NCBI RefSeq assembly: GCF_041080625.1
Contig: NZ_CP163518.1
Coordinates: 7,371,501-7,435,500 of the forward strand
Origin: Streptomyces sp. CG1
Lineage (GTDB): Bacteria; Actinomycetota; Actinomycetes; Streptomycetales; Streptomycetaceae
Reading direction: 5' to 3'
Length of the DNA: 64,000 bases
This document shows, one piece after another, positions 5,012 through 60,970 of this stretch. The notes under the pieces were generated by a model. It searched no databases and was not told the DNA's origin. It saw only the letters and a program-made list of their open reading frames with translations. The position numbers were made by a program, and so were the translations under genes. Position 1 is the stretch's first letter, and each line of letters starts with the position of its first letter.

Positions 5012-6898
<1,887 letters not shown>

Positions 6899-6929
6899 CG
6901 GACAGCAGAAGAAGAACGGGAGTCACTGG

Positions 6930-9374
6930 GTGACGGGTACGGACGTGCGCACGGAAGCAGAGGACTCGGGACCCAGCGGCTACGCGGCGGCCCGGCTGCG
7001 CCTCCTCACCGAGGGGGCGCGGTCCGGGCCGCCGCGCCGTGCCGCCCTCGCGGAACTGACCGACGACTGGCTCAGCGGCCTGTTCACCGCGGCGGCCCAG
7101 GATCTCAGAGGCATCTCCCTGGTCGCCGTCGGCGGCTACGGCCGTGGCGAGCTGTCCCCGCGCAGCGACCTCGACCTCCTGCTGCTGCACGACGGCTCCG
7201 ACCCCGGCGCGGTCGCCGCCCTGGCCGACCGCCTCTGGTACCCGGTCTGGGACCTCGGCCTCGCCCTGGACCACTCCGTGCGCACCCCTGGAGAGGCCAG
7301 GAAGACCGCCGGGGAGGATTTGAAAGTCCAACTCGGTCTTCTGGACGCCCGGCATCTCGCCGGCGACCTCGGCCTCACCGCCGGGCTCCGGACGGCCGTC
7401 CTCGCCGACTGGCGCAACCAGGCGCCCAAACGCCTCCCCGAACTCCAGGAACTGTGCGCCGAACGCGCCGACCGGCAGGGCGAGTTGCAGTACCTGCTGG
7501 AACCCGACCTCAAGGAGGCGCGCGGCGGCCTGCGGGACGCCACCGCCCTGCGCGCCGTCGCCGCCTCCTGGCTCGCCGACGCCCCGCGAGAGGGCCTCGC
7601 CGACGCCCGCCGGCGCCTCCTCGACGTACGGGACGCGCTGCATCTGGCGACGGGCCGCGCCACCGACCGGCTCGCGCTCCAGGAGCAGGACCAGGTGGCG
7701 GCCGAGCTGGGCCTGCTCGACGCCGACACCCTGCTGCGGCAGGTCTACGAGGCGGCGCGCGTCATCTCGTACGCCAGTGACGTCACCTGGCGCGAAGTGG
7801 GGCGCGTACTGCGTTCGCGCGCCGTACGGCCGCGCCTGCGCGCCATGCTGGGCGGCGGCAAGCCGGTTGTGGAACGGTCGCCGTTGGCCGAGGGCGTGGT
7901 GGAGCAGGACGGCGAGGTGGTGCTCGCCCGTGCCGCGCGCCCCGAGCGCGACCCCGCGCTCCCGTTGCGTGCCGCGGCCGCCGCCGCGCAGGCCGGCCTC
8001 CCGCTCTCCCTGCACGCCGTACGGCGCATGGCCGGCGCCGCGCGCCCCCTGCCCACACCCTGGCCCGCCGAGGCCCGTGAACAGCTGGTCACCCTCCTCG
8101 GCTCCGGCCGCCCCACCGTCCAGGTCTGGGAGGCGCTGGAGGCAGAGGGCCTGATCAGCCGCCTGCTGCCGGACTGGGAACGGGTCCGCTGCCGCCCGCA
8201 GCGCAATGCCGTCCATGTGTGGACAGTCGATCGGCACCTCATCGAAACAGCGGTCCGCGCCTCCGAGCTGACCCGCCGGGTCAGCCGCCCCGACCTGCTC
8301 CTGGTCTCCGCCCTGCTGCACGACATCGGGAAGGGCTGGCCCGGCGACCACTCGCTGGCCGGCGAGATCATCGCCAAGGACGTGGCCGCGCGGATCGGCT
8401 TCGACCGGTCGGACGTGGCCGTGCTGTCGCTCCTGGTCCGCCACCACCTGCTGCTCATCGAGACGGCCACCCGCCGCGACCTGGACGACCCGGCCACGGT
8501 CCGCTCGGTTGCCGAGGCGGTCGGCACGCAGAGCACGCTGGAGCTGCTGCACGCGCTCACGGAGGCCGACGCCCTCGCCACCGGACCGGCGGCCTGGTCC
8601 TCCTGGCGCGGCTCCCTCGTCGCCGACCTGGTCCGGCGGGTCTCCGCCGTACTCGCCGGTGACGCCCCCGAGGAGCCGGAGCCCGCCGCGCCCACGGCCG
8701 AGCAGGAGCGGCTGGCGATCGAGGCGTACCGCACCGGCGGCCCGGTCCTCGCGCTGCGTGCCCAGACGGAACCGGTCACCGACCAGGAGACCGCCCAGGA
8801 ACCCCTCGGTGTCGAGCTGCTTATCGCCGTACCCGACCAGCCCGCCGTGCTCCCCGCCGTCGCCGGTGTGCTCGCCGTGCACCGCCTCACCGTCCGCACA
8901 GCCGAGCTGCGCACCCTGACGCTGCCGGACGACGTCGACGACGGCGGGGTGCTGCTGCTCAACTGGCGGGTGGCCGCCGAGTACGGCTCCCTGCCGCAGG
9001 CCACCCGGCTGCGCGCCGACCTCGTCCGCGCCCTCGACGGCAGCCTGGACATCGCCGGCCGCCTCGCCGAACGGGACGCGGCCTACCCCCGCCGCCGCGG
9101 CTGGACCGCCCCGCCGCCCCGGGTGACGGTGGCCCCGGCCGCCTCCCACCACGCCACGGTGATCGAGGTCCGCGCCCAGGACGCCCCGGGCCTGCTGCAC
9201 CGCATCGGCATGGCCCTGGAGAAGGCGGGGGTGCGGGTACGGAGCATGCATGTGAGCACGCTGGGCTCCAACGCCGTGGACGCGTTCTACGTCACCACCG
9301 GCGCGGGGGAGCCGCTGCCCGGGGACGACGCCGGGTCGCTGGCACGGGTGCTGGAAGAGACGTTGCGGGCCTGA
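6930..9374 (+). CDS. glnD: PII uridylyl-/adenylyltransferase GlnD
   Basis: An 814-residue modifier of GlnK. The nucleotidyltransferase domain shows GGYGRGELSPRSDLDLLLL (about residues 66-84). The HD domain, which removes the nucleotide, shows LLHDIGKGWPGDHS near residue 462. Two ACT-type glutamine-sensing domains fill the C-terminus (ELLIAVPDQPAVLPAVAGVL and EVRAQDAPGLLHRIGMALE). In S. coelicolor this enzyme adenylylates GlnK (known from the species). GTG 6930 was chosen because GGGAG lies 7 nt upstream; longer in-frame starts run into glnK. Confidence 0.95.
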   Translation: MTGTDVRTEAEDSGPSGYAAARLRLLTEGARSGPPRRAALAELTDDWLSGLFTAAAQDLRGISLVAVGGYGRGELSPRSDLDLLLLHDGSDPGAVAALADRLWYPVWDLGLALDHSVRTPGEARKTAGEDLKVQLGLLDARHLAGDLGLTAGLRTAVLADWRNQAPKRLPELQELCAERADRQGELQYLLEPDLKEARGGLRDATALRAVAASWLADAPREGLADARRRLLDVRDALHLATGRATDRLALQEQDQVAAELGLLDADTLLRQVYEAARVISYASDVTWREVGRVLRSRAVRPRLRAMLGGGKPVVERSPLAEGVVEQDGEVVLARAARPERDPALPLRAAAAAAQAGLPLSLHAVRRMAGAARPLPTPWPAEAREQLVTLLGSGRPTVQVWEALEAEGLISRLLPDWERVRCRPQRNAVHVWTVDRHLIETAVRASELTRRVSRPDLLLVSALLHDIGKGWPGDHSLAGEIIAKDVAARIGFDRSDVAVLSLLVRHHLLLIETATRRDLDDPATVRSVAEAVGTQSTLELLHALTEADALATGPAAWSSWRGSLVADLVRRVSAVLAGDAPEEPEPAAPTAEQERLAIEAYRTGGPVLALRAQTEPVTDQETAQEPLGVELLIAVPDQPAVLPAVAGVLAVHRLTVRTAELRTLTLPDDVDDGGVLLLNWRVAAEYGSLPQATRLRADLVRALDGSLDIAGRLAERDAAYPRRRGWTAPPPRVTVAPAASHHATVIEVRAQDAPGLLHRIGMALEKAGVRVRSMHVSTLGSNAVDAFYVTTGAGEPLPGDDAGSLARVLEETLRA

Positions 9375-9645
9375 CCCCACGAGAGCCGTGACCGCCGACC
9401 GAGCGTCCTCTCCGCGGCCGCGCGGGTGCTTCGGGGTGGCTCCCGGTGGTCGCGGAGGCGCTCCGGGGCGGCTCCCTGGGGTCGGCCCGGCCCTCTTCGA
9501 GTCCGGCCCGTGTGCCGCATGATCCACGGGCAGCGGGGGAGCAGCACTGCCCGCCGATCGCGACGGGCGGGGACTGTTGCCTTGCCGGGCCGGATACCCT
9601 GGAGGGCAGCCCAGACCATCCCCGACCCCGAGGACCGACGCCACC

Positions 9646-11196
9646 GTGTTCGATACCCTCTCCGACCGCCTCAGCGCGACTTTCAAAAACCTCCGCGGCA
9701 AGGGCAGGTTGTCCGAGGCGGACATCGACGCCACGGCGCGCGAGATCCGCATCGCGCTCCTCGAAGCCGACGTGGCGCTGCCGGTCGTCCGGACGTTCAT
9801 CAAGAGCGTCAAGGAACGCTCTTTGGGCGCCGAGGTCTCCAAGGCGCTGAACCCGGCCCAGCAGGTCCTGAAGATCGTCAACGACGAGCTGGTGACCATC
9901 CTCGGCGGCGAGACCCGGCGGCTGCGCTTCGCCAAGCAGCCGCCCACCGTGATCATGCTCGCAGGTCTCCAGGGTGCCGGTAAGACCACCCTCGCGGGCA
10001 AGCTCGGCCGCTGGCTGAAGGAGCAGGGCCACTCCCCGCTGCTGGTAGCCGCCGACCTCCAGCGCCCGAACGCCGTCAACCAGCTGAGCGTCGTCGCCGA
10101 GCGCGCGGGCGTGGCGGTCTTCGCGCCTGAGCCGGGCAACGGCGTCGGTGACCCGGTCCAGGTCGCCAAGGACTCCATCGAGTTCGCGAAGTCCAAGGTC
10201 CACGACATCGTGATCGTGGACACCGCCGGCCGTCTCGGTATCGACCAGGAGATGATGCAGCAGGCCGCGGACATCCGCGACGCCGTCTCCCCGGACGAGA
10301 TCCTTTTCGTCGTCGACGCGATGATCGGTCAGGACGCCGTCAACACCGCCGAGGCCTTCCGCGACGGCGTCGGCTTCGACGGCGTGGTGCTCTCCAAGCT
10401 CGACGGTGACGCCCGCGGTGGTGCCGCCCTGTCGATCCGCCAGATCACCGGCAAGCCGATCATGTTCGCGTCGAACGGCGAGAAGCTGGACGACTTCGAC
10501 GCCTTCCACCCGGACCGGATGGCCTCCCGCATCCTCGACATGGGTGACCTGCTCACCCTGATCGAGCAGGCGGAGAAGACCTTCAGCCAGGAAGAGGCCG
10601 CCAAGATGGCCTCGAAGCTGGCGTCCAAGAAGGGCCAGGACTTCACCCTGGACGACTTCCTGGCCCAGATGGAGCAGGTCAGGAAGATGGGCAGCATCAG
10701 CAAGCTGCTCGGCATGCTCCCGGGCATGGGCCAGATCAAGGACCAGATCCAGAACATCGACGAGCGGGACGTCGACCGCACCGCCGCGATCATCAAGTCG
10801 ATGACCCCGGGCGAGCGCCAGGACCCGACGATCATCAACGGCTCCCGCCGCGCCCGTATCGCCAAGGGTTCCGGCGTCGAGGTCAGCGCGGTGAAGAACC
10901 TGGTCGAGCGGTTCTTCGACGCCCGCAAGATGATGTCCCGCATGGCCCAGGGCGGCGGTATGCCGGGCATGCCGGGGATGCCGGGCATGGGTGGCGGCCC
11001 GGGCCGGTCCAAGAAGCAGCCGAAGAAGGCCAAGGGCAAGCAGCGCTCCGGCAACCCGATGAAGCGCAAGCAGCAGGAGCTGGAGGAGGCCCAGCGGCGC
11101 GAGACGGCCGGACAGGCCGGCGGCGCGTTCGGGCTGCCGCAGCAGGGCGGCCAGGACTTCGAGCTGCCGGACGAGTTCAAGAAGTTCATGGGCTGA
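9646..11196 (+). CDS. ffh: Signal recognition particle protein Ffh
   Basis: The SRP54 homologue binds 4.5S RNA and hydrophobic signal sequences. The 516-residue protein has an N domain, a G domain with P-loop GLQGAGKTT near residue 107, DTAGR near 192 and SKLDGDARGG near 250. The methionine-rich M domain follows from about 300 (GMLPGMGQIKDQI, SRRARIAKGSG, GGGMPGMPGMPGMGGG). Its G/K-rich C-terminal tail ends in DFELPDEFKKFMG. GTG 9646 (protein start VFDTLSDRLSATFKNLRG) matches the family N-terminus. The 271-bp gap after glnD suggests its own promoter. Confidence 0.97.
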   Translation: MFDTLSDRLSATFKNLRGKGRLSEADIDATAREIRIALLEADVALPVVRTFIKSVKERSLGAEVSKALNPAQQVLKIVNDELVTILGGETRRLRFAKQPPTVIMLAGLQGAGKTTLAGKLGRWLKEQGHSPLLVAADLQRPNAVNQLSVVAERAGVAVFAPEPGNGVGDPVQVAKDSIEFAKSKVHDIVIVDTAGRLGIDQEMMQQAADIRDAVSPDEILFVVDAMIGQDAVNTAEAFRDGVGFDGVVLSKLDGDARGGAALSIRQITGKPIMFASNGEKLDDFDAFHPDRMASRILDMGDLLTLIEQAEKTFSQEEAAKMASKLASKKGQDFTLDDFLAQMEQVRKMGSISKLLGMLPGMGQIKDQIQNIDERDVDRTAAIIKSMTPGERQDPTIINGSRRARIAKGSGVEVSAVKNLVERFFDARKMMSRMAQGGGMPGMPGMPGMGGGPGRSKKQPKKAKGKQRSGNPMKRKQQELEEAQRRETAGQAGGAFGLPQQGGQDFELPDEFKKFMG

Positions 11197-11257: not shown

Positions 11258-13198
11258 ATGACCAACCCCGCGCCGCCACGTAAGTCGCCCGACCAGCCCT
11301 GGCGTACCGAGGGCGCTCCGGAGGAGCCGCCGAGGCCGCCGTCCGGCGGGCCGGGCATGCGTGGCGGCTGGTGGCGTCTGGTCCTCACCGCGCTGATCGT
11401 GTACCTGATCGCGAACCTGGTGCTGTCGTACTTCGACCAGGAGACCGAGCCGACGATCGCGTACACCGAGTTCAGCAGGCAGGTGAACGACGGCAATGTC
11501 GCCAAGATCTACGCCAAGGGCGACTCGATCCAGGGTCAGCTGAAGAAGGAACAGAAGAACCCCGAGGGCGGCGGGAACTACACCAAGTTCAACACCGAGC
11601 GGCCGTCCTTCGCGAACGACAGCCTCTGGTCGAACCTGACCAAGCACAACGTCACGGTCACCGCCGAACCCGTCGTCCAGCACCGCAGTTTTCTCTCCAA
11701 CCTGCTGATCTCGCTGGCGCCGATGCTGCTGCTGATCGCCGTGTGGGTCTTCATCGCGCGGCGGATGAGCGCGGGGCTCGGCGGTGCGGGCGGCATGCTG
11801 GGCCGCAAGGCGCCGCCGAAGCCGGTCGAGCTGGTGCCGGGGGAGAAGCGCACCACCTTCGCCGACGTGGCCGGCATCGACGAGGTCGAGGGCGAGCTGA
11901 ACGACGTCGTCGACTTCCTGAAGAACCCCGACGCCTACCGCCGTATGGGCGCCAAGATGCCCCGCGGCGTGCTGCTCGCGGGCCCGCCCGGCACCGGAAA
12001 GACGCTGCTCGCGCGGGCGGTCGCCGGCGAGGCGGGCGTGCCGTTCTTCTCCGCGTCCGCGTCCGAGTTCATCGAGATGATCGTGGGCGTGGGCGCCTCG
12101 CGCGTCCGGGAGCTGTTCGCGGAGGCCCGCAAGGTCGCGCCGTCGATCATCTTCATCGACGAGATCGACACCATCGGGCGGGCCCGCGGCGGCGGCGCGT
12201 CGATGGGCGGACACGACGAGCGCGAGCAGACCCTGAACCAGATCCTCACCGAGATGGACGGCTTCTCCGGCTCGGAGGGCGTCATCGTCATCGCGGCCAC
12301 CAACCGCGCCGACATCCTCGACCCGGCCCTGACCCGCCCCGGCCGCTTCGACCGGATCGTCCAGGTCTCACCTCCGGACCGCGGCGGCCGCGAGGCCATC
12401 CTGGAGATCCACACCCGCGACATCCCGCTGGCCCCGGACGTCGACCTCGCCCAGGTCGCCCGTACGACCCCGGGCATGACCGGCGCGGATCTGGCCAACC
12501 TCGCCAACGAGGCCGCCCTGCTCGCGGTGAAGCGGCAACAGGAACGCGTGCATCAGGCCGATATGTCCGAGGCCCTGGAGAAGGTCCAACTCGGCGCGGA
12601 ACGGCCGCTGGTGATGCCCGAGGAGGAACGCCGGCGCACCGCCTACCACGAGAGCGGGCACGCCCTGCTGGGCATGCTCCAGCCCGGCGCCGACCCGGTT
12701 CGCAAGATCACCATCGTGCCGCGCGGCCGCGCCCTCGGCGTCACCCTGTCCACGCCGGACGCGGACAAGTACGCGTACACCGAGGAGTATCTGCGCGGCC
12801 GGATCATCGGCGCGCTCGGCGGCATGGCGGCCGAGCACGTCGTCTACGACGTGATCACCACCGGCTCCGAGAGCGACCTGGAACAGGTCACCAACATCGC
12901 GCGCGGAATGGTGTCCCGCTGGGGCATGAGCGAGGAGGTCGGCCGTCTCTCCGCGCTCCCCAACGACGCCCAGCAGGCCTACGGCCTCGCCGCCGCCCCG
13001 CAGACCCTCGACGTGATCGACACGGAGATGCGGCGGATCGTGGACGAGTGCTACGACGAGGCGTGCCGCAAACTCCGCGACCACCGCGACCAGTTGGACG
13101 CCCTCGCGCAGGCGCTGCTGGCGAACGAGACCCTGGAGGAGGCGGACGCGTACCGCATCGCGGGGATCACGCGCCTGACCAAGGACGCGGATCAGTAG
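11258..13198 (+). CDS. ftsH: ATP-dependent zinc metalloprotease FtsH
   Basis: A membrane-anchored AAA+ protease that removes misassembled membrane proteins. The 646-residue protein has a Pro-rich N-terminus, TM1 at about 40-60 ([19 protein letters not shown]), an extracytoplasmic loop, and TM2 near 148-172. Walker A GPPGTGKT is near 243, Walker B IIFIDEID near 298, and the second region of homology is [20 protein letters not shown]. The zinc motif HESGH lies near 464. ATG 11258 was chosen because a -10-like box lies directly before it; a TTG at 11240 would add six residues. Streptomyces usually has a second FtsH elsewhere, and this one lies immediately after ffh. Confidence 0.93.
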
Positions 13199-13239: not shown

Positions 13240-14160
13240 TCAGGGCACGCGCGCGATCAGGTACCGGAAGACGTTCGGCATCCACACGGTCCCGTCCGGC
13301 CGCCGGTGCTGATGCAGTGCCTCCGTCAGCTCCTTGTCGACCTGCTTGGCGTCGGTCGCCGCGATCGCCGCGTCGAACAGGCCGGTCGACAGCAGCCCGC
13401 GTACGGCACTGTCGACGTCGGCGTACCCGAAGGGGCAGGCCACCCGCCCCGAGCCGTCCGGCTTCAGCCCCGCCCGCTGGGCGACCTCCTCCAGGTCGTC
13501 CCGCCGGGCCGGCCGCCAGCTGCGCGCGCTGCGCAAGGGATCGGCCAGTTTCGTCGCCACCCGCAGCACCGAGGAGGTGGCGCAGCGCTCCGGCGGACCC
13601 CAGCCGGCCAGCACCACGGCGGCCCCGTGCGCGGCCGATGGGAGCGCGCCCGCCAGCAGCTCGCCGAGCCCCTCGGAGTCCCCCGCGAGGCAGCCGATCG
13701 GCTCGAAGACGGTCACCAGCGTGTACGCGGCCGTCTCCGCGTCGGCCGCGGCACGGGGCAAGCCGTCGAGGAGCCGCACGGCAGCACGCGCGCGTGGATG
13801 CTTTCTTCCACCGCGCGGCCCCTGTCCGTGTTGTCCGCCGGGTACGCCGTCGCTCGCGTCGCGTGGAGCGTCCGGCAGCAGGCGGTCGCGGGCGAGCGCG
13901 AGCCGTTCGGGTGAGGCGCCGTCGACACCAGTGACGACGGCGCCTCTGCCGGCCGCCAGAAGCAGTGCGAGCCCGGAGCCGCAGCGCAGGCCCAGCAGCC
14001 GGGTGGCGGGGCCCACTTCAAGTCGGTCGTAGACGGCTCCGTAGAGCGGCACCAGCATCCGCTCCTGGATCTCGGACCAGTCACGCGCGCGTGCGCACCG
14101 GTCCACGCGGGGTGCGGAATCCGCGTGAGACGTGTGCTGCCGCACGAGCGTAGGTGTCAT
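13240..14160 (-). CDS. SAM-dependent methyltransferase (class I fold)
   Basis: A 306-residue protein with a Rossmann-like SAM site: motif I LLGLRCGSGLALLLAA at about residues 46-61, followed by the acidic VTGVDGASPERLALAR. The C-terminal half (EEVAQRAGLKPDGSGRV, GYADVDSAVRGLLSTGLFD) resembles ubiquinone/menaquinone-type methyltransferases. The substrate is unknown. ATG 14160 gives the conserved start MTPTLVRQHTSHADSAPR; the frame stays open upstream but loses codon bias. It is convergent with ftsH, 41 bp apart, and divergent from the SprT-like gene. Confidence 0.8.
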   Translation of the reverse strand: MTPTLVRQHTSHADSAPRVDRCARARDWSEIQERMLVPLYGAVYDRLEVGPATRLLGLRCGSGLALLLAAGRGAVVTGVDGASPERLALARDRLLPDAPRDASDGVPGGQHGQGPRGGRKHPRARAAVRLLDGLPRAAADAETAAYTLVTVFEPIGCLAGDSEGLGELLAGALPSAAHGAAVVLAGWGPPERCATSSVLRVATKLADPLRSARSWRPARRDDLEEVAQRAGLKPDGSGRVACPFGYADVDSAVRGLLSTGLFDAAIAATDAKQVDKELTEALHQHRRPDGTVWMPNVFRYLIARVP

Positions 14161-14735
14161 AGGTAAGCGCCCCAATCCGCCGACAGTTCGCCGCTGTGCC
14201 CGGTTGCGTGGCCCCCGTGCCGTGCGCGCGTACTTCCCACGTATGCCAGGTAACTCCCGGCTCGCGGCTCCGTCCAGGGGGCGTGGAGCCCCGCTTGGGG
14301 TGTGGGCCCGGGTGTGGCGAGATTTCACATCCCGGCAATCTGGATGGCCGTACGGTGTCCGCTTCGGGGGAACGGGCCGGTGCCGGGGGTCGGGGCGCAC
14401 GCAGTAACACCACGGCCGTCACGAACGCTGACCGAGGTGAGGCTCCGCGCCGAGAGCGGCCGAAAGGACTCTTGCGCACCCGCCGACCACAGCCGTGCGC
14501 GGCCGTACTGGCAAACCGAAGGGGCGGCCCGAAGGGCCTCCGTCGAGGGCGGTGGTGGGCGACGGGTGGGCGTAGCGCGGACTACGCACCGGCTTGGTAC
14601 GAGCTGTGACGCTTCTCCGCAGATCAGCGCACCCGCCCTCGTCCGGACGCATCAGCGGCAACTGACGGGTACGTGCAAATTATTTGGGATGGCCCGGAAT
14701 AGGAACACAGCGGCACCCCCGCTCGTTGTCATTAC
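14161..14735. other. Long divergent intergenic region (575 bp) with no convincing gene
   Basis: Open frames in this stretch (the longest is 14302-14739 on the plus strand) have poor codon bias and biased amino acid content, so I do not call them. The region is unusually AT-rich around 14673-14705 (a run with AAATTATTTGGGAT), which could be the promoter of the 14736 gene. No clear terminator or operator is visible. Confidence 0.4.
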
Positions 14736-51066: not shown

Positions 51067-51093
51067 GGAAGCCACCGTCGGGGGAGGGTGGAC

Positions 51094-52056
51094 GTGACGA
51101 GCAGTACGCCGCAGGGGGCCGGGCGCCGGCTGGAGAACGGGATCGCCTGGGCGGTCCGGAACGCGGACGGGGTCGTTGCGATCGTCGTCGCCGTGGTCGT
51201 CGGGCTGATGGACGTCCTCAACAACAACATGGACCCCAACATAGTCTCCGGCGCCACGCTGCTCGTGCTCGCCGCGCTGGTGTACGGCTCGCTCACCGAG
51301 CGCCGGCGCCGGATGGCCGACCTCCGCGCCGCGACCGCCGGAACCAGCCGGGCCATCGAGGACCTGGCGATGGTGCGTGCGCTCTCCGGCGCCGAGACCG
51401 CCCTCGCCCACGAGCAGGCCCGGCGTACGACCAGCCGCTGGGTGTTCAAGGGCGGGACCGGCACCTATCTGCGGGCCGTCACGCTGCCCGAGTGCGTGCT
51501 CGAAGCACAGCGCCAGCGGCGCTCCCTCAGCATGAAGATCGACATCATCAACCCCGCCGACGACCACGTGTGCGCCGCCTACGCCCGCTTCAGGAGCACA
51601 TTCGGGCCAGGGCCCGGCGGAGACCACGCCGAGTGGACCGTCGAACGCACCCGGAAGGAGGCCTACGCCACCGTCGTCGCCGCCTGCTGGCACCGGCAGC
51701 GGCTGGACACCCTGGAGATCGACGTCCACCTGTCCTCGGTGGCACCGGCGCTGCGCTTCGACCTCTCCGACACCTGCCTGATCATCACCCAGGACGACCC
51801 CAGCAGGGTCAGCCTCTATGTGGAGCGCGCCCGGCCGCTCTACGACTACTACGTCACCGAGCTGCACCAGAGCCGCGAGCAGGCGGTCAAGCTCGATCTG
51901 CGCGAGGCCGTCCCGCTCACCGAAGAGCCCACCGTGGACGAGGTCAGACGCCTGCTCGACCGGCTCGGCCTGCCACTTCCGCCGAGCTACACCGACCGTG
52001 ACGTCGGCGACGTCATCGACAAGGCGCTGCGCGCGGAGAACCCGTACCGCAGGTGA
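51094..52056 (+). CDS. Membrane-anchored protein of unknown function
   Basis: A 320-residue protein with two N-terminal hydrophobic helices (about residues 23-40, VVAIVVAVVVGLMDVLN, and 45-63, SGATLLVLAALVYGSL). A 250-residue soluble C-terminal domain follows, containing WVFKGGTGTYLRAVTLPECV, WTVERTRKEAYATVVAACW and SRVSLYVERARPLYDYY. The soluble part resembles phospholipase-D-like or PIN-like scaffolds only vaguely; I do not assign a function. It leads the run to the cupin-like gene (30 nt gap). Confidence 0.75.
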   Translation: MTSSTPQGAGRRLENGIAWAVRNADGVVAIVVAVVVGLMDVLNNNMDPNIVSGATLLVLAALVYGSLTERRRRMADLRAATAGTSRAIEDLAMVRALSGAETALAHEQARRTTSRWVFKGGTGTYLRAVTLPECVLEAQRQRRSLSMKIDIINPADDHVCAAYARFRSTFGPGPGGDHAEWTVERTRKEAYATVVAACWHRQRLDTLEIDVHLSSVAPALRFDLSDTCLIITQDDPSRVSLYVERARPLYDYYVTELHQSREQAVKLDLREAVPLTEEPTVDEVRRLLDRLGLPLPPSYTDRDVGDVIDKALRAENPYRR

Positions 52057-52086: not shown

Positions 52087-52743
52087 ATGGACTACCCGGC
52101 CCTCGAACGGGCCGCCCGGCGGCATGCCGCCGCCGAGCTGATACGGCACGCCGTGTCGGAACTGGACCGCATCGTCTCGGGTCGCCGCGCCCTGCACGCG
52201 GTACGACATCCCCTGGGGTTCGTCTGCCTGCCCGTCCTGCGCGACGGCGACGACGGCGTCTGCGTCCACGTCTTCGGTACGCCGGAGGCCCAGCCCGACG
52301 AGTCCGTGCCGCAAGTGCACTGCCACAGCTGGGACTTGACGAGCACGGTGCTGTACGGCCGGCTCGACAACCGGCGCATGGACGTGGACGACGACACCGG
52401 CGAACCCACCCACCGGGTCTTCGAGGTGTTCAGCGATCCCTCCGGCGTCGACGAACTCCGGCCCACCGGGCGGCTGGTGCGGCTGCGGCCCGGCGCGGAA
52501 CAGACCAGCGCGCGCGGCCAGAGCTACACCCTCCCGGCGGGTGAATTCCACACCAGCGTGGTGCCGGACGGCCGCCCCACCGCCACCCTGGTCCTGGGGC
52601 GGACCCTGCCCGGCCGCGTGGACCTCTCGCTGGGCCCGCCGTCCGCCCCGGGCCACCGCATGGTCCGCCGGACGTGCGACGCGACCCAGACCGCCCGGAT
52701 CGCTCGGGCCGCCCTCAGGAGGATCCATGAGCCCGAACCCTGA
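52087..52743 (+). CDS. Cupin-fold-like protein
   Basis: A 218-residue protein with VHCHSWDLTSTVLYGRLDNR (about 77-96), a His-rich metal-like motif of the cupin/cysteine-dioxygenase type, and the second motif YTLPAGEFHTSVVPDG near 150. The HxH...H arrangement suggests a metal-binding barrel. Substrate unknown. GGGGGAAGGAA lies before ATG 52087. It overlaps the IMPase gene by 17 nt, so the 51094, 52087 and 52727 genes form one transcriptional unit. Confidence 0.75.
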   Translation: MDYPALERAARRHAAAELIRHAVSELDRIVSGRRALHAVRHPLGFVCLPVLRDGDDGVCVHVFGTPEAQPDESVPQVHCHSWDLTSTVLYGRLDNRRMDVDDDTGEPTHRVFEVFSDPSGVDELRPTGRLVRLRPGAEQTSARGQSYTLPAGEFHTSVVPDGRPTATLVLGRTLPGRVDLSLGPPSAPGHRMVRRTCDATQTARIARAALRRIHEPEP

Positions 52744-53689
52744 CCCGTCGTCCTCGCCGGCCGGCTACGCCGTTGAGCACCGTACGGCCGTGGGCGCCGC
52801 CGAGGAGGCCGGTGCGCTGCTGCGCTCCCGCTTCCCCGACGGTTTCGCCGCCCGTCCCAAGGGTCAACTCGGCGATGTCGTCACCGACTTGGACGTGGCC
52901 GCCGAGCAGCTCCTGGTCGGACGGATCCGCGAGCGCTTCCCGCACGACCGGATCCTGGCCGAGGAGTCCGGCGAACTCGCCGGTCACGGCGGCGGCGACC
53001 GCACCTGGCTGATCGATCCCCTCGACGGCAGCAACAACGTCGTCATCGGGCTCCCCGTCTACGTCGTCGGTGTCGCCCTGTGCGTCGAGGACACACCCGT
53101 CGTGGGCGTCGTCCACGATCCGATGACCGGCCGTACGTGGTCCGCGCTGCGGGGCGGCGGGGCCCAGGGGCCCGGCGGGCGCCTCGCCGCCCCTCCGCCC
53201 GCCCGCCCGCTCTCTGCCGCGGGTCCCCTGCTGGCCTGGACCCAGGGCCACGCCGTCTCCCGCGACGATCACGTCGCCTGCGCCCTCCGCCACACCCTCG
53301 AACTCCGCTCCCGCCGCCTGCTCCAGCTCTGGGCGCCCCTGGTCGCCTGGGCCATGCTGGCCCGCGGCGACATCGACGGCTTCGTGGGCTACCGCGCCGA
53401 GGCGATCGACCTCCCCGCCGGCGCGCTGCTCGCCCGCGAGGCCGGCATTGCCCTACGGCACCTCGACGGGGCCGAGTTCGGCGGCGGCTTCGGCGGTCCC
53501 GACACGGGCCGTTCCTTCGTCGCCGGGCGCCCGGAGATGCTGCCGCACCTCCTCGACCTCGTCAGCCCTTTCTCTCCCGGCACCGAGGGCATGCACACGG
53601 TGGAAACCGCCCCGGCAGGTCCAACGGCGCGGCGTTCTTCGGCGGCCGGTACGCCACCGTCGGGCCCCACGTCCGGCCATCGTCCCTAG
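52727..53689 (+). CDS. Inositol monophosphatase-family phosphatase
   Basis: A 320-residue protein with the IMPase motifs ILAEESGE (metal-binding Glu) near residue 78, WLIDPLDGSNN near 96 and GYRAEAIDLPAGALLAREAG in the C-terminal half. The family hydrolyses inositol phosphate, histidinol phosphate, FBP or PAP; the actual substrate is unknown. AGGAGG is 4 nt before ATG 52727. The C-terminal ~40 residues are low-complexity. Confidence 0.88.
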   Translation: MSPNPDPSSSPAGYAVEHRTAVGAAEEAGALLRSRFPDGFAARPKGQLGDVVTDLDVAAEQLLVGRIRERFPHDRILAEESGELAGHGGGDRTWLIDPLDGSNNVVIGLPVYVVGVALCVEDTPVVGVVHDPMTGRTWSALRGGGAQGPGGRLAAPPPARPLSAAGPLLAWTQGHAVSRDDHVACALRHTLELRSRRLLQLWAPLVAWAMLARGDIDGFVGYRAEAIDLPAGALLAREAGIALRHLDGAEFGGGFGGPDTGRSFVAGRPEMLPHLLDLVSPFSPGTEGMHTVETAPAGPTARRSSAAGTPPSGPTSGHRP

Positions 53690-53765: not shown

Positions 53766-55043
53766 CTAGGTCAGCGCCAGCGCGCCCACCGCCGCCCCCA
53801 CCGCACACGCCGCCAGTACCGCGCCGGTCCCCATCAATCGGCGCACCGGCACCCGGACCCCGTACGCATGGCACCGCTCGTACCACAGCAGCGTCGCCAG
53901 GGACGCCCACGGCGTGATCACCGGGCCGGCGTTCGTACCGACCAGCAGGGCGAGCAGCTGGTCATGGTTGCCCACCGGCACGGCCGCCTCACCCGCGAGG
54001 TAGACGGGGAGGTTGTTGAGGGCGTTGGAGAGGCCGCCGCCCACCGCCGCCGCGCGGAACATGCCGAGCGTGCCGCCGTCGTGGCCGACCGCCGAGGCGA
54101 GCAGACGGTGCAGCCCGTGCGCGTCGAACGTCTCGACCACCAGGAACATGCCGGGCACCATCACCAGCAGCCGCCAGGGGATGAGTGACGGTCGGAGAAC
54201 CGACCGGTCACGGACGACGAAGGCCGCCACGGCGACCAGCGCGGCCGTCGCCGAGGCCAGCCACAGCGGGACGTCGGCCACCAGGATGGCGATCAGGAAG
54301 CCGGCGCAGGCGAGCGCGCAGGCGCGGAAGAGCACCGGGTCGGCGGGGCGGTGCACGGCGGGCGGTGTGTAGCGGTCGGCCGCGTCGGGGCGGACGTCCG
54401 CCGCGCGCGCCGCACCGGGCCCCGGCAACGGCACGGCGGTCAGCAGGCCGGACTCGTCCACCACAGGGCCCCCACGCCTGCCCCGCCGCCAGAAGAACAG
54501 CCACAAACAAGCCATTGTCACGGCCAGCGCGGCGAGTTGCGGGGCCCACATCCGGCCCGCCAGGCCCAGCGGGGACAGGGCGACCCGGTTGGCGGCCAGC
54601 AGGTTCGTCAGGTTGGACACGGGCAGGAGGAGGCTAGCCGTGTTGGCCAGCCAGACCGTGGTCATCGCCAGCGGCACCGGCGCGATGCCCACCCGGGAGG
54701 CGAGTGCCAGCATCACCGGGGTCAGCAGGACCGCCGTCGTGTCCAGGTTCAGGGCGATCGTCGTGACGGAAGCGAAGGCCACGCACAGCAGGAACAACAA
54801 CCCGTAGCTGCCCCGGCCCGCCCGTGCCACCCGGGACGCCAGCACGTCGAACACCTCGGCCCTGCTGGTCAGTTCGGCCAGCACGATCACCGTGCCCAGG
54901 AACCCCAGGAGCGGTGCTATGCGGGTCATCGCGCCGGAAGCGGAACCGGTGGGCAGCAATCCCGTGGCCACACACAGCAGTCCGGTCACCAGCAGACCGA
55001 TCGCCACCCGGTCGAGGACATGCAGACGCAGCAGGACACGCAC
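53766..55043 (-). CDS. ArsB/SLC13-like ion transporter
   Basis: A 425-residue integral membrane protein with about 11 hydrophobic segments. Family motifs: LGTVIVLAELTSRAEVFDVL, VTTIALNLDTTAVLLTPVML (the loop common to ArsB/NhaD/SLC13), and LSNALNNLPVYLAGEAAVP with VGTNAGPVITPWASLATLLW. Substrates in the superfamily are arsenite, sodium or carboxylates. GTG 55043 is chosen near the first membrane segment; the frame extends to 55184 into the promoter region of the divergent gene. Divergent from the TIR-NACHT gene with only 101 bp between starts. Confidence 0.85.
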   Translation of the reverse strand: MRVLLRLHVLDRVAIGLLVTGLLCVATGLLPTGSASGAMTRIAPLLGFLGTVIVLAELTSRAEVFDVLASRVARAGRGSYGLLFLLCVAFASVTTIALNLDTTAVLLTPVMLALASRVGIAPVPLAMTTVWLANTASLLLPVSNLTNLLAANRVALSPLGLAGRMWAPQLAALAVTMACLWLFFWRRGRRGGPVVDESGLLTAVPLPGPGAARAADVRPDAADRYTPPAVHRPADPVLFRACALACAGFLIAILVADVPLWLASATAALVAVAAFVVRDRSVLRPSLIPWRLLVMVPGMFLVVETFDAHGLHRLLASAVGHDGGTLGMFRAAAVGGGLSNALNNLPVYLAGEAAVPVGNHDQLLALLVGTNAGPVITPWASLATLLWYERCHAYGVRVPVRRLMGTGAVLAACAVGAAVGALALT

Positions 55044-55144
55044 GGTTGGAAGGGTCGCACAGTTGTGCCCTGCTGTGGCCTGCGCGCCGTCGAACGCCTG
55101 GAAACGACCGGTATCAGCCTCTCTTCTCACGGCATCATGAATAC

Positions 55145-58100
55145 ATGGTGGCTCGTCAGAACGCCCCGGGGGACACCGGGCCATTGGACTTCTTCATCAG
55201 CTACTCGCCCGCGGACGAACGCTGGGCGTCCTGGATCGCCTGGACCCTGGAGGAGGCCGGGTACCGGACGGTTCTGCAGGCCTGGGACTTCGTCCCGGGC
55301 ACGAACTTCGTCGACTTCATGGACCGTGGCGTGAGCGAGTCCGCCGCCGTCATCGCCGTACTCTCGCGGAACTACGAACGCTCCCGTTACGGGCGGATGG
55401 AATGGCAGGCCGCGCTGCGCGCCGACCCGGACGCGCCGGAGCGGCGGCTGCTCACCGTACGGGTCGAGGACATCCCGGTGGAGGGGCTGCTCGCCACGAT
55501 CACGTACGTCGATCTGGTACCGGTCACCGATCCGGCGGCGGCCCGGGAGCTGCTGCTCGCCCGGGTCCGGCAGGCCCTCGACGGGCGGGCCCGGCCCAGC
55601 GTCCGTCCGGACTATCCGGGCGGGGGCCTGGCGGCGCCGCATGCGATCGTGCCCTCCGCACCGAGCCCCGGGCGGCCCCTCGGCGGGCCCGGGTGGGCGG
55701 GGCGCCGTAGACCGGCTGCGGCGCCGTCGTATCCACGGGTGTCGGCGGAGGTCCGGGAGCGGGAGGCGGTCACCGTGCTCCAGCTCGCCGGGCCCGCCTT
55801 CGGGCGGGGGCAGGACCCCACCGAGCTGCAGGCCGCGATCTGGGGCGATCTGGTCGAGCTGGCCGACGCGGGGGCGCCCTCGCCCGATCTGCTGGTCGTC
55901 ACCGGGGACCTCACCGCCTCGGGAAGCCGGCGCGAGTTCGAGCAGGCCCTCGCCTTTCTCACCGGACTGCGGGCCCTGCTCGGGCTCGAACCGCACCGGG
56001 TCGCTCTGGTCCCCGGTGGCCAGGACGTCAACCAGGCCGCCTGCCAGGCCTACTTCAGCACCTGCGAGGCCGACGAGATGCCGCCCCGGCCGCCGTACTG
56101 GCCCAAGTGGCGGCACTTCGCCCGGCTGTTCCAGGAGCTGTACCAGGGGCTGGACGTCGTCTTCGACAGCGATCAGCCCTGGACGCTCTTTCCCGTGCCG
56201 GAACTGCACACCGTGGTCGCGGGGCTGAACTCGTCCATGGCCTACAGCCACCGCCGCGACGACCAGTACGGGCTGATCGGGGGCGAGCAGGCCGCCTGGT
56301 TCGCGCAGGCGCTGCGGCCGCACGAGACCGAGGGGTGGCTGCGGATCGGCGTCGTACGGCATTCGCCCGGTGCCGCCCGGCCTGTCGCCGGTGTCCGGCG
56401 GGCCGGTGCGCCGGGTACCGCCGCCCTGGACGGCGCCGGTCCGCTGCGCGACACCGATGTGCTGACCCGGCTGACCGCGCCCCGGCTGCATCTGCTGCTG
56501 CACGGCCCGGCCGACTCGGGCGCGGTGCAGCCCGACCTGGCCACCGGCTCCGGTGAGCTGCCGGTGATCGGCACGGTCCGGGCCGGCGGGCACCAGCTGG
56601 TGCGGGTCAGCCGGGACGGGCTGGCCGTCTGGCACGGGCCGGGGGAGCCACGGCGGCGGCCGGTCCAGTGGCGGCGGGCCGACCGGGCCTTCGCGCCCGC
56701 ACCGGGGGAAGCTCCTGATCCGGACCCGGTCGCCCTCGACCCCGAGCCCCGCGCCGTACAGACCGCTGCCGAGATACTGCTCGCCAGGGTCGCCGAGGTG
56801 TGCCGCACCCGGCACGAGGGCGCCCAGCTGCGCCCGGTCGACGGGCCGGTGCCCCAACTGCTGGTCACCTGGACCCAGTCGGGCTTCGTACGGCAGCAGC
56901 GGGTGGCGGTGCACACCGGCACGCCGACCGCGCAGGACGTCGACCGGTTCGTGGCCCTCGTGCACGCCGCCGACGCCGAGACCGAGGCCGAACTCGTCCA
57001 CGACGGCCCGCCGCCCGCCCGTGAACTGCGCGACGCGGCCCGCCGCCGGGGCGTCCGGGTGCGCAGCTTCACCGAGTTCCAGGGCCTGCTCGACCTGCGC
57101 GGCTACGTCTTGGCGCAGAGCGAGCGGCTGCGCACCGACCCCCGCTATCCCCCGGGCATGTACCTGCCGCAGCGGTACCGCGAGGTGGAGCGCCTCGATG
57201 CCGAGGACCGTGACGGGCTGGCCGACGAGATGCTGCGGCTGCTCGACTCCGACCAGGGGCGCTTCCTGCTGCTCCTCGGCGACTTCGGGCACGGCAAGAC
57301 CTTCGCGCTGCGCGAGCTGGCCCGCCGTATCCCCGCCGAACTGCCGCACCTCGTCCCGCTGTTGATCGAGCTGAACGCCCTGGACCGGGCCTACTCCTTC
57401 GAAGGACTCGTCGCCGGCCACCTCGCCGCCCACGGCGTCGACAACATCGACCTGCGGGCCTTCAGGTACATGCTCCAGCAGGGCCGGATCGTGCTGCTCT
57501 TCGACGGCTTCGACGAACTCGTCAACCAGGTGACGTACGACCGCGCCGCCGAACGCCTCCAGGTGCTGCTGGACTCCGCCGTGGACAGCGCCAAGATCGT
57601 GGTCAGCAGCCGTACCCAGCACTTCCGCTCCCAGGGCCAGGTGCTGACCGCGCTCGGTGAACGCGTCGGCCTGCTCCCGCACCGCCGGGTGCTGGCCGTC
57701 CAGGAGTTCAGCCCGCAGCAGATCCGCGCCTATCTGGTCAACCGCTACGACGGCGACGAACGCGCCGCCGACCACCGGCTGCGGCTGCTGGACGCCATCC
57801 CCGACCTGCTCGCCCTGTGCCGCAACCCCCGGCTGCTCGGCTTCGTCGCCGACCTCGACGACGACCAGCTGCGCGCCGTCGCCGGCGCCGGGCGCGCCCT
57901 CAGCCCCGCCGGGCTGTACCAGGAGGTGCTCACCGCCTGGCTGGGCTTCGAGGCACAGCGCGCCGGCGCCGGTCCCGGCCGGGCGCCCGGACTCTCCCTG
58001 GACCAGCTGTGGGACGCGGTCACCGCGCTCGCCCTGCGACTGTGGGAGAGCGGCCAGGACTCGCTGCGGCTCGACGAGCTGACCGACGTCGCCGAGACCC

Positions 58101-60970
58101 TCACCGGGCTCGCGGAGGCCCGGCTGTCGGTGCCGCAGACCGCGCACGCCATCGGCTCCGGCAGTCTGCTGGTGCGCGGCGACGACAGCGTGTTCCGGTT
58201 CATCCACGGCTCGGTGGTGGAGTGGCTCGTCGCCCGCGAGTGCGCCCGCAGGCTCACCGACGGCGACAGCACCCTGCTCGGCCGGCGCCAACTCAGCCAG
58301 CTGGCCGTCGAGTTCCTGTGCGACCTCGCCGACCACCGGATCTGCCAGGCCTGGGCCGAGCGGGAGCTGTCCGGCACGCCCGGGGACGGCTCACTGGTCG
58401 CCGCCCACGCCAACGCCGTGAAGATCCTCAGCCGGCTCCGCGTGCCCGCCCACACCGACCTGCGCGGCGCCGCCCTCGCCGGGGAGGACCTGTCCCACCG
58501 CGACTTCTCCGGCGTCGACCTCACCCGCGCCGACCTCACCGACGCCCGGCTCGTCGGCGCCGGCCTGACCGGCGCCGTCCTGCGCGGCGCCCGGCTGGTC
58601 GGCGCCCGGCTCGACGGCGCGGATCTGACCGGTGCCGACCTGCGTGGTGCCGACCTCAGACGGGCCCGGCTGATCGGCACCGACCTGACCGGCGCCCGGG
58701 TGGACGGCAGCCGGTGGCGGCGGGCCGCGCTGATCTCGGCGACCACCGGGGCCGTGGCGGGCGCCCCGGAACTGGCCGGTGCGGCCATCGCCCCCGGCAT
58801 GTCCGTCGACGCCGGCTTCCGGCCCTCCACCGTCGGTGTCCCGTACGGCTACGAAGCCCGCGTCCGACTGCCCGAGCCCATGTCCTACAGCCCCGACGGG
58901 GAACTGCTCGCCGTGGGCAGCGAGGACGGCGGCGTCCTGGTCTGCGACGCCGGCACCGGCATCCCGCTGCGCACCCTGCAGGGCCACACCGGCCGGGTCT
59001 ACGCGGTCAAGTTCCGCGAACGCGTGCTGGCCACCGGCAGCTCCGACGGCACCGTACGGCTGTGGGACCCGGTCTCGGGCCGCTGTCTGCACCGGCTGGA
59101 GATCCACCCGAACGGCGTGTGGCCGGTGGCCCTCGACACCGACGGTTCGCGCCTGGCCACCGGCGACGCCGACGGCGTGGTCACCGTCTGGGACACCGCC
59201 TCGGGCACCCCGCTGCACCGGCTGCCCGGACACGCCGCGCCCGTCTACACCGTGGCGTTCGGGCCCGGCGACACCACCCTGGTCACCGGGGACGCCTCCA
59301 CCGTCGTACGCCTGTGGGACCTGGCCACCGGGCGGCAGACCGGCGAGCTGCCCGGTCACCACGGCGCGGTGTACCGGGCGCGGTTCAGCCCGGACGGCAC
59401 CCTGCTGGTCACCGCCGACCGCGGCGAGGAGGGGCGCGGCGGCACGGTGCGCGTGTGGGACTTCGCCACCGGGGCGCTGCTCCACGAACTGCCCGGACAC
59501 TCCGGCCGCGTCTACACCCTGGACTTCCACCCCGGCGGCACCCTGCTGGTCAGCGGCGACACCCAGGGCGAGGTACGGCTGTGGGACCTGGCCGCCGGGC
59601 GCTCCGCCGGACTGCTGGGCGGCTGCCGCGGTGCCGTGTACCAGGTGCTGTTCGACCCCGACGGGAACCTGCTCGCCGCCGGGGACAGCGCCGGCGTGGT
59701 CCGGCTGTGGCGGATCGACCCGGAGGCCGACCCCGTCGCCGTGCCGCTGAACCGGCAGCCCGCCGAGCACCGCGGCTCGGTGTGGGTGTGCAAGTTCCGC
59801 CCGCACGGCGACACGCCCGCCCAGGGCCCCGGCGCGCTGCTGGTGACCGGCGGCAACGACGGTGTCGTACGCCTCTGGGAGCCCGCCACCGGCCAGGGCA
59901 GGCGCATCCTGCGCGGCCACGGACGGCGCATCGGCACCCTGTCCTTCAGCGCCGACGGCGCGATGCTGGCGGCCGGCGGCAACGACGGTGTCGTGCGGGT
60001 GTGGCAGGCGGCCTCCGGCCGGCGGCTGCGTGAACTCACCGGCCAGAGCGACCGGCTGGTGTCGGCGGCGTTCGGCCCCGTCGGACCCCTGCTGGCCACC
60101 GCCAGCAGCGACGGGGACATCTACCTGTGGAACGCGGCCACCGGTGAGTACCAGCGCGAGGTGGACGTCGAGACCGACCATGTGTGGGCGGAGGCGTTCA
60201 GCGCCGACGGTTCCCTCCTGGCCACCGCCAACGACGACGACACGGTGCGGCTGTGGTACCGGACCACCGGAGCGCATGTCGCCACCATCACCGAGCACTT
60301 CGGGCGGGTCCGCGCGATCGCCTTCCGGCCCGACGGCGCGGTGCTGGTCACCGGCTGCGACGACCGCAAGGTGCGGATCGTGGACATGGACGGCCACCGC
60401 GTCACCGCCCAACTCGACGGCCACACCGACCGGGTGTACGCCGTGGCCTTCGCCCCCGACGGCTCCTGGCTGGCCAGTGCCTCCTGGGACGGTACGGCGG
60501 TGATCTGGAAGGACGGCGAGATCGCCCACCGCCTCACCGGCCACACCGGCAAGCTCTGGACGGCGTCGGTGCATCCGTCCAGGGCCTTGCTGGCGACGGC
60601 GGGCGACGACCGTACCGTCCGTCTCTGGAACGCCGACACCGGTGAGGAGACGGCTCTTCTGACGGGCCACACCGGCCGCATCCTGGCCGTGGCCTTCAGC
60701 CCCGACGGCTCCCTGCTGGCCAGCGGCGGCGAGGACGGAACGGTACGGCTGTGGAACGTCCCCGCCGACGCCCCGGCCACCCTCCGGGTCACCCTGGTCG
60801 GCATGCCCGGCGGCTGGGCCGCGCTGTCCCCGTCCGGCGGCTACAAGTACGAGGGAGACGTCACCGGCGAGTTCTGGCATGCGGTGGGCATGTGCCGCTT
60901 CGAGCCCGGCGAGCTGGACGGGCAGCTGCCGGGGGTGTGGCAGGTGCCGCTGGACGCTCCACTGGGGTGA
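55145..60970 (+). CDS. Giant NLR-like protein: TIR / degenerate metallophosphoesterase / NACHT / pentapeptide / WD40
   Basis: A 1941-residue cytoplasmic protein. Domains in order: TIR (about 14-140; DFFISYSPADERW, box WDFVPGTNFVDFM, candidate catalytic Glu86 in RMEWQAAL); calcineurin-like phosphoesterase fold (about 198-520), which keeps VVTGDLTASG but has LAGPAFG in place of DxH, VPGGQDVN in place of GNHD and HGPADSG in place of GHxH; a degenerate restriction-nuclease-like segment (about 540-690); NACHT NTPase (P-loop GDFGHGKT near 712, Walker B LLFDGFDEL near 785, sensor VSSRTQ near 820); pentapeptide repeats (about 1105-1188); 14-15 WD40 repeats (about 1237-1880, two propellers); and the tail YKYEGDVTGEFWHAVGMCRF. 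Such chains act as anti-phage immune receptors in bacteria, with the TIR as a NAD-consuming effector (inference for this protein). ATG 55145 has no Shine-Dalgarno sequence. Codon use matches the genome. Confidence 0.9.
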   Translation: MVARQNAPGDTGPLDFFISYSPADERWASWIAWTLEEAGYRTVLQAWDFVPGTNFVDFMDRGVSESAAVIAVLSRNYERSRYGRMEWQAALRADPDAPERRLLTVRVEDIPVEGLLATITYVDLVPVTDPAAARELLLARVRQALDGRARPSVRPDYPGGGLAAPHAIVPSAPSPGRPLGGPGWAGRRRPAAAPSYPRVSAEVREREAVTVLQLAGPAFGRGQDPTELQAAIWGDLVELADAGAPSPDLLVVTGDLTASGSRREFEQALAFLTGLRALLGLEPHRVALVPGGQDVNQAACQAYFSTCEADEMPPRPPYWPKWRHFARLFQELYQGLDVVFDSDQPWTLFPVPELHTVVAGLNSSMAYSHRRDDQYGLIGGEQAAWFAQALRPHETEGWLRIGVVRHSPGAARPVAGVRRAGAPGTAALDGAGPLRDTDVLTRLTAPRLHLLLHGPADSGAVQPDLATGSGELPVIGTVRAGGHQLVRVSRDGLAVWHGPGEPRRRPVQWRRADRAFAPAPGEAPDPDPVALDPEPRAVQTAAEILLARVAEVCRTRHEGAQLRPVDGPVPQLLVTWTQSGFVRQQRVAVHTGTPTAQDVDRFVALVHAADAETEAELVHDGPPPARELRDAARRRGVRVRSFTEFQGLLDLRGYVLAQSERLRTDPRYPPGMYLPQRYREVERLDAEDRDGLADEMLRLLDSDQGRFLLLLGDFGHGKTFALRELARRIPAELPHLVPLLIELNALDRAYSFEGLVAGHLAAHGVDNIDLRAFRYMLQQGRIVLLFDGFDELVNQVTYDRAAERLQVLLDSAVDSAKIVVSSRTQHFRSQGQVLTALGERVGLLPHRRVLAVQEFSPQQIRAYLVNRYDGDERAADHRLRLLDAIPDLLALCRNPRLLGFVADLDDDQLRAVAGAGRALSPAGLYQEVLTAWLGFEAQRAGAGPGRAPGLSLDQLWDAVTALALRLWESGQDSLRLDELTDVAETLTGLAEARLSVPQTAHAIGSGSLLVRGDDSVFRFIHGSVVEWLVARECARRLTDGDSTLLGRRQLSQLAVEFLCDLADHRICQAWAERELSGTPGDGSLVAAHANAVKILSRLRVPAHTDLRGAALAGEDLSHRDFSGVDLTRADLTDARLVGAGLTGAVLRGARLVGARLDGADLTGADLRGADLRRARLIGTDLTGARVDGSRWRRAALISATTGAVAGAPELAGAAIAPGMSVDAGFRPSTVGVPYGYEARVRLPEPMSYSPDGELLAVGSEDGGVLVCDAGTGIPLRTLQGHTGRVYAVKFRERVLATGSSDGTVRLWDPVSGRCLHRLEIHPNGVWPVALDTDGSRLATGDADGVVTVWDTASGTPLHRLPGHAAPVYTVAFGPGDTTLVTGDASTVVRLWDLATGRQTGELPGHHGAVYRARFSPDGTLLVTADRGEEGRGGTVRVWDFATGALLHELPGHSGRVYTLDFHPGGTLLVSGDTQGEVRLWDLAAGRSAGLLGGCRGAVYQVLFDPDGNLLAAGDSAGVVRLWRIDPEADPVAVPLNRQPAEHRGSVWVCKFRPHGDTPAQGPGALLVTGGNDGVVRLWEPATGQGRRILRGHGRRIGTLSFSADGAMLAAGGNDGVVRVWQAASGRRLRELTGQSDRLVSAAFGPVGPLLATASSDGDIYLWNAATGEYQREVDVETDHVWAEAFSADGSLLATANDDDTVRLWYRTTGAHVATITEHFGRVRAIAFRPDGAVLVTGCDDRKVRIVDMDGHRVTAQLDGHTDRVYAVAFAPDGSWLASASWDGTAVIWKDGEIAHRLTGHTGKLWTASVHPSRALLATAGDDRTVRLWNADTGEETALLTGHTGRILAVAFSPDGSLLASGGEDGTVRLWNVPADAPATLRVTLVGMPGGWAALSPSGGYKYEGDVTGEFWHAVGMCRFEPGELDGQLPGVWQVPLDAPLG

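Follow-up and report, generated by a model that had tools for sequence, protein, structure and literature searches.

An NLR-like TIR-NACHT receptor of Streptomyces within a conserved five-gene cassette of actinobacteria

Most of what is known about NLR-like receptors in bacteria concerns antiphage genes, examined singly. In the window analysed here, that is, the whole 64,000-nucleotide stretch of Streptomyces sp. CG1 DNA, a gene for a large protein of this kind follows directly on four other genes. With these it makes up a chromosomal cassette of five genes that is conserved among actinobacteria.

Domain architecture of the receptor

The protein of 1,941 amino acids is read from one open frame with zero internal stops, and its modules are arranged as follows:

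55145..60970, + strand: receptor gene (TIR, pseudo-phosphoesterase, NA-iREase3, NACHT, pentapeptide repeats, 15 WD40 repeats; Pfam and open frame)
55190..55552, + strand: TIR domain, aa 16-136 (PF13676, TIR_2, E 2e-35 on the segment)
55400-55402, + strand: predicted catalytic Glu E86 of the TIR (alignment position)
55760..56644, + strand: dead calcineurin-like phosphoesterase, about aa 206-500 (PF00149, E 0.0084, below cut-off)
56774..57097, + strand: NA-iREase3, a NACHT-associated inactive restriction-endonuclease fold, aa 544-651 (PF22739, E 5e-40)
57263..57739, + strand: NACHT NTPase, aa 707-865 (PF05729, E 6e-11)
57278-57301, + strand: NACHT Walker A (motif)
57503-57517, + strand: NACHT Walker B, DGFDE (motif)
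58457..58699, + strand: pentapeptide repeats, about aa 1105-1185 (PF00805, E 7e-23)
58862..60760, + strand: WD40 repeats, aa 1240-1872, 15 stretches (PF00400, E 6e-123)

The open frame and the Pfam matches thus bear out an earlier note on this DNA, which had described a single chain of this length with TIR, NACHT, pentapeptide and WD40 modules. The five module types it counted are all there, but it missed a sixth, NA-iREase3, which scores 144.5 bits on the segment against a curated cut-off of 27; two of the six modules are dead enzyme folds. The native codon use claimed in that note was gauged by third-position GC, which is 0.91 for the ORF 54824-60970.

Relatives were sought with receptor residues 1-1100 among about 5.8 billion proteins, and at least 622 were found at E 1e-10 or better among 7,985 candidates scored. 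One alignment holds the best 120 of these at least 622 relatives, namely the query and 119 others, which are 61-95% identical to it over residues 1-1100 with at least 97% of the region covered, and which by name come mostly from Streptomyces and Kitasatospora, with one each from Embleya and Streptoverticillium. A second alignment of 81 proteins combines the window with 80 named loci (42 from Streptomyces/Kitasatospora, the window counted, and 39 others), these being the best 80 of at least 239 receptor relatives in genome contigs. The genera represented are Streptomyces, Kitasatospora, Streptosporangium, Sphaerisporangium, Nonomuraea, Actinomadura, Microbispora, Planotetraspora and Micromonospora, plus one Streptosporangiaceae MAG. 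A stop is reached 1,850-2,022 codons past the match start in 78/80 named loci, the other two running off the contig, with the choice of best matches biasing receptor intactness upwards.

The earlier note had expected an active-site Glu in the TIR domain. Indeed, E86, which sits at the catalytic position when the domain is aligned with TLR TIRs, is invariant in 120/120 and 81/81 aligned proteins and in 17/17 of a set including paralogues; in NADase TIRs the Glu aligned with it is the catalytic residue. The TIR is also the most constrained part of the receptor (dN/dS 0.04-0.05 in 3/3 close pairs), and its profile matches the bacterial TIRs 3h16, 4c7m, TcpB (4lqc) and 7uxr, all at E < 0.01. PADLOC matches the domain in part to bSEFIR (E 4.8e-10). 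On this sequence evidence the TIR is a putative NADase that would cleave NAD+ when the receptor is triggered. What counts against such a reading is that, among known structures, those closest to it in sequence are TLR and MyD88 domains from animals. At one class locus, L190 (G573), a second TIR match (51%) was seen at 13862-14251, some 3.5 kb beyond the WD40 match of the receptor relative.

The second module reaches 17 bits with PF00149, against a cut-off of 21.5. An active calcineurin-like phosphoesterase was rejected, as the set of metal motifs DxH, GD, GNHD, H and GHxH is not present. That is, in the 120- and 81-protein alignments the motif I Asp position (216) is Gly throughout (120/120 and 81/81) and no sequence keeps the His of position 218, so DxH is lost in every protein of both. 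Retention is rare for Asn 292 (5/120 and 7/81), His 293 (10/120 and 16/81) and the first His of GHxH at position 455 (0/120 and 2/81), while H406 is kept in 120/120 and 81/81, and D255 is Asp in 120/120 of the first set and either Asp (67) or Asn (14) in the second. Membership of the antiphage phosphoesterase family DS9_1 (NCBIfam NF053862, E 4e-11) was likewise rejected, at 42.6 bits against a curated cut-off of 420.

Relatives found by tBLASTn in class genomes combine the modules in other ways. All four phosphoesterase segments scanned pass PF00149 (L189, 1.5e-13; L177, 4.3e-12; L179, 5.5e-12; L178, 5.8e-8). L177 and L179 combine a TIR with a near-intact phosphoesterase (SDTQF, GD, GNHD, HH, GHxH), and L189 has SDVQF, GD, GNHD, HH and GHTH and no TIR match; despite these near-intact sites, the motif I His position is Gln in all three. 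Other TIR-iREase-NACHT-WD40 relatives, for example L174, L176, L183 and L184, have no phosphoesterase match. Because the relatives it aligns with pass PF00149 and keep near-intact sites, the module in the window is a decayed homologue, and the pseudo-phosphoesterase proposed in the earlier note holds up. Comparison of these relatives suggests that the phosphoesterase may have been an earlier effector that later decayed. The L189 protein (G644, minus strand, about 5057-9812) shares homologous phosphoesterase, iREase and NACHT modules with our receptor but differs in lacking a TIR match and in its almost intact phosphoesterase site; judged by its motifs, this phosphoesterase-iREase-NACHT-WD40 protein is a good enzyme candidate.

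By homology, the chain follows the NLR-like plan of an N-terminal effector, a NACHT with Walker A and B, and a C-terminal repeat sensor. NACHT residues K718, T719, D787, D790 and E791 are invariant in 120/120 and 81/81 aligned proteins. The WD40 repeats, whose partial match to HEAT-ARM_XIII (E 1.6e-31) is the best that PADLOC returned, probably form two propellers. Sorted by identity, the proteins fall into three groups; the 28 of the most distant group are on average 85% identical to the window in the TIR and 77% in the NACHT, followed by the propellers (64-67%), the phosphoesterase (62%), the iREase (60%) and the linker (47%). Across the three close pairs, dN/dS in the NACHT is 0.07-0.11, while the first propeller region has 0.33-0.39 and the second 0.19-0.26. 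The first propeller gives the highest ratio in two pairs; in the third, the highest (0.42) belongs to the helical segment that follows the NACHT. As whole-domain ratios, none exceeds 1 in any receptor domain; this, together with the identity of the propellers in the distant group, argues that the sensor is not hypervariable. Beyond the last WD40 repeat there is a C-terminal tail of 69 aa (window 60761-60967), 66% identical in the distant group, in which the Pfam scan found no family.

The cassette and its partner genes

The receptor gene is the last of five, with genes 1-4 lying directly upstream:

51088..52056, + strand: cassette gene 1, 322 aa, two predicted transmembrane helices and a PLD-fold domain without HxK
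52087..52743, + strand: cassette gene 2, a cupin nearest to thiol dioxygenases, 218 aa
52727..53689, + strand: cassette gene 3, inositol-monophosphatase (IMPase) family, 320 aa (PF00459, E 8e-39)
53766..55184, - strand: cassette gene 4, CitMHS/ArsB-type transporter, divergent from the receptor gene (PF03600, E 4e-35)

Gene 1 was rejected as a catalytic phospholipase D, HxK being absent from 18/18 sequences, yet 33 of its residues are invariant in the same 18. The gene 2 product, which has no sequence match in PDB or Pfam, is modelled as a cupin fold; its nearest modelled fold is that of cysteine/thiol dioxygenases, with other cupins within 2 Z units (DddK 9.4), and three His (H78, H80 and H155) are conserved in 17/17 sequences. 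The Pfam E value of gene 3 refers to a longer ORF, 52541-53689. The gene shares 17 bases with the cupin gene, and its residues E79, D97, D100 and D228, presumably metal ligands, occur in 17/17 sequences. For gene 4, relatives place the true start probably near 55067.

None of the four partners has a PADLOC match. In the Pfam scan of ten other ORFs between 45554 and 63787, two of which belong to no family, we found no mobile-element family, in line with the earlier note, and no defence family was recognised, which counts against a defence reading.

Partner genes were searched for at the best 80 named loci (E 1e-6), where the transporter was matched in 80/80, the cupin in 78, gene 1 in 77 and the IMPase in 76. 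The whole five-gene set was matched in 75 of the 80, and in 74 it has the canonical layout of gene 1, cupin, IMPase, transporter (reverse) and receptor, the remaining complete locus (L129) having its first three genes inverted. The gap between the IMPase and transporter matches exceeds 500 bases in 13/74 canonical loci. This overturns the earlier picture of a gene that sits alone. Of the two neighbours named at the time, the transporter does adjoin the receptor gene, as cassette gene 4, but the small membrane protein downstream is matched in only 2/10 other genus loci and lies outside the cassette.

Within the genus, the complete cassette was matched by tBLASTn in 9/10 other receptor loci. At these ten loci, genes outside the cassette were matched in the nearest relatives only, save for one 52% aldehyde-dehydrogenase match. 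The tenth, L025 (G010), is a decaying locus with a broken receptor, a partial IMPase and no match to gene 1 or cupin. At another, L023 (G006), a TerF-like vWA protein (11828-12544) immediately follows the receptor. The same locus supplied the query for a gltD-like gene; in the searched flanks of the 80 named loci it was matched in two, once at 100% identity to the query, and the cassette site therefore differs between lineages.

Several observations weigh against treating the five genes as one unit. Two of the five incomplete named loci (L080 and L111) are cut by contig ends, but at uncut loci the IMPase is unmatched in two (L125 and L130) and gene 1 in one (L086). In addition, physically linked genes can vanish together without acting jointly.

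Distribution and loss of the cassette

In a survey of 150 genomes drawn evenly from the genus, the receptor occurs in 11, and the IMPase orthologue in exactly the same 11, which speaks for the cassette. Gene 1 is present in 10 of these and also, at 38%, in G049. The transporter is found in 20 genomes, comprising all 11 carriers and nine others; its occurrence without the rest in 9/20 counts against the cassette reading. These nine transporter-only loci, L028-L036, of which some lie on short contigs, gave no match to any further cassette gene. In the four of them with genes listed (L028, L029, L030 and L032), the lone transporter adjoins the gltD-like gene, and in the carriers L023 and L026 the cassette adjoins the same gene. 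Such an arrangement fits, but does not prove, loss of the cassette leaving the transporter behind.

G049 carries adjacent distant relatives of gene 1 (34%) and the cupin (44%) at L037:7796-9422, with no receptor, IMPase or transporter match in the locus stretch searched. The pair can thus exist alone, which again counts against the cassette reading, and it may be an older unit.

In a class survey of 236 genomes, the cupin (E 1e-8) was matched in 10 and the iREase-NACHT query (E 1e-30) in 17. The cupin is present in 7/7 genomes with iREase-NACHT matches of at least 56% identity, in favour of the cassette reading, and in 1/10 (G644) of those with only weaker relatives (54% or less). It also occurs in 2/219 of the remaining genomes, G562 and, as a weak match, G067, where a longer receptor query found nothing at E 1e-20; these two cases count against the cassette reading.

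The receptor is broken into separate frames in 3/11 carriers (G005, G010 and G119), possibly by assembly error. Gains and losses were counted on a tree built from the rpoB DNA of 30 genomes chosen from the genus (11 carriers, 5 transporter-only and 14 without). The carriers require at least eight gains or losses on it, seven of them forced by well-supported branches, and label shuffles gave values as low in 123/500 cases; the carriers are thus not clustered beyond chance, a further point against the cassette reading. The tree of eight intact receptors joins G000 with G146, then G117, then G125, and G035 with G018, all in agreement with rpoB, whereas its pairing of G042 with G006 has no resolved counterpart there. 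This history fits descent with repeated loss, and transfer is possible. The earlier suggestion of a chromosomally fixed gene is not supported, given a receptor found in so few genus genomes and the gains or losses required on the tree. Absence or fragmentation in close relatives, which the earlier note would have held against its own reading, is partly what we see. No receptor relative was found by tBLASTn in phage records, nor in the viral contigs searched.

Mode of action and relation to known systems

The earlier note could match the protein to no named defence system. Indeed, NCBIfam NACHT antiphage models score far below their cut-offs (EruA 22.3 of 1000 bits, HyoA 10.2 of 1200) and PADLOC gives partial matches only; the plan itself, however, is a known one. 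Like the bNACHT and Avs antiviral STAND receptors, our receptor has an N-terminal effector, a central NACHT and a C-terminal sensor, the tripartite arrangement described for bNACHT proteins in PMC12169576. Unlike them, it has a TIR plus two dead enzyme folds and belongs to a five-gene cassette. For multicellular bacteria, PMC7159879 and PMC8195603 survey proteins in which STAND NTPases and repeats are coupled to an effector of TIR or calcineurin type; together with PMC10907252 and PMC12169576, these papers cover both such effectors and the tripartite bNACHT plan. In these STAND conflict systems, the available text describes no cassette of such composition. The five-gene cassette is likewise absent from the accessible text of PMC10907252 and PMC12169576, and we did not recognise it elsewhere in the literature searched. 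The receptor type is thus known in kind; what is new is the six-module chain and, above all, the conserved five-gene cassette.

The reading that we prefer, and to which we give an even chance, is that of an NLR-like receptor of a conserved actinobacterial five-gene cassette. Its TIR would cleave NAD+, and receptor and partners together would serve cell death or defence. At rest, the protein would be kept inactive by its WD40 and pentapeptide region, which would also recognise the trigger; ATP binding by the NACHT would then drive receptor assembly, with the dead phosphoesterase and endonuclease folds as linkers or docking parts. NAD+ cleavage by the clustered TIR domains would stop or kill the cell, and this might include protection against phage. 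The probable task of the partners (membrane-anchored PLD-fold protein, cupin, IMPase-family phosphatase and anion transporter) is to set the signal, reset it or pass it on. They might, for instance, produce or clear a small molecule by which the receptor is gated, or link the receptor to the membrane. A more specific version is tentative: the five genes would be one undescribed system in which the receptor is restrained by a metabolite whose synthesis or clearance falls to cupin, phosphatase and transporter, until infection or damage upsets the balance and NAD+ is destroyed at the membrane, with the pseudo-PLD protein as anchor.

Phage need not be the trigger. As a stress or development switch, the receptor would monitor a thiol, phosphate ester or anion that the cupin, IMPase and transporter handle, and bring about mycelial cell death. 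Many carrier genera of the cassette are mycelial, and the carriers found are actinobacteria. Three of the four partners look as if they convert or transport small molecules, and putative metal ligands are conserved in two of them; both the empty phage search and the lack of any domain with dN/dS above 1 would suit such a switch. Presence in 11/150 genus genomes, with three broken copies, is however unlike a core developmental gene, and we consider this explanation rather unlikely.

We give a similarly low probability to a TIR that makes a signalling nucleotide, an ADP-ribose derivative, without draining NAD+, with the PLD-fold protein or another partner reading or removing it. Gene 1, as a predicted membrane-anchored PLD fold without its catalytic motif but with 33 invariant residues, could be such a reader, and Thoeris TIRs are reported to signal via cyclic ADP-ribose (PMC12578639). 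The likeness to Thoeris ends with a TIR acting on NAD+, an activity predicted for our receptor. Membership was rejected, as no ThsA-type SIR2-SLOG or macro family is found by Pfam in the four partners and there is no PADLOC match; the lack of these receiver families equally speaks against a nucleotide signal.

It strikes us as distinctly improbable that the receptor acts against phage as a single gene, in the manner of bNACHT/Avs, and that its four neighbours are incidental. It does share the effector-NACHT-sensor plan of bNACHT proteins (PMC12169576), the transporter also occurs outside the cassette, and gene 1 and cupin occur together in the absence of the receptor. Yet the gene order is kept in 74/80 loci across several actinobacterial genera while tested flanks change, every domain is under purifying selection (dN/dS 0.42 or less in three pairs), and the phage and viral-contig searches gave no relative. 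Finally, a TIR serving as a non-enzymatic scaffold, as its likeness to animal TLR and MyD88 TIRs could suggest, is very improbable given the invariant Glu at the catalytic position and the strongest constraint of any domain.

Returning to the preferred reading of a cassette-borne NLR-like receptor, homologous proteins record the decay of a probable phosphoesterase effector beside a TIR effector and make the turnover of NLR effectors traceable. With the receptor and its four partners kept across several actinobacterial genera, the trigger and the restraint of a bacterial NLR can be approached through a defined set of genes open to deletion. Its presence in many soil actinobacteria suggests that the cassette is a system for cell death or defence that has not been described before.
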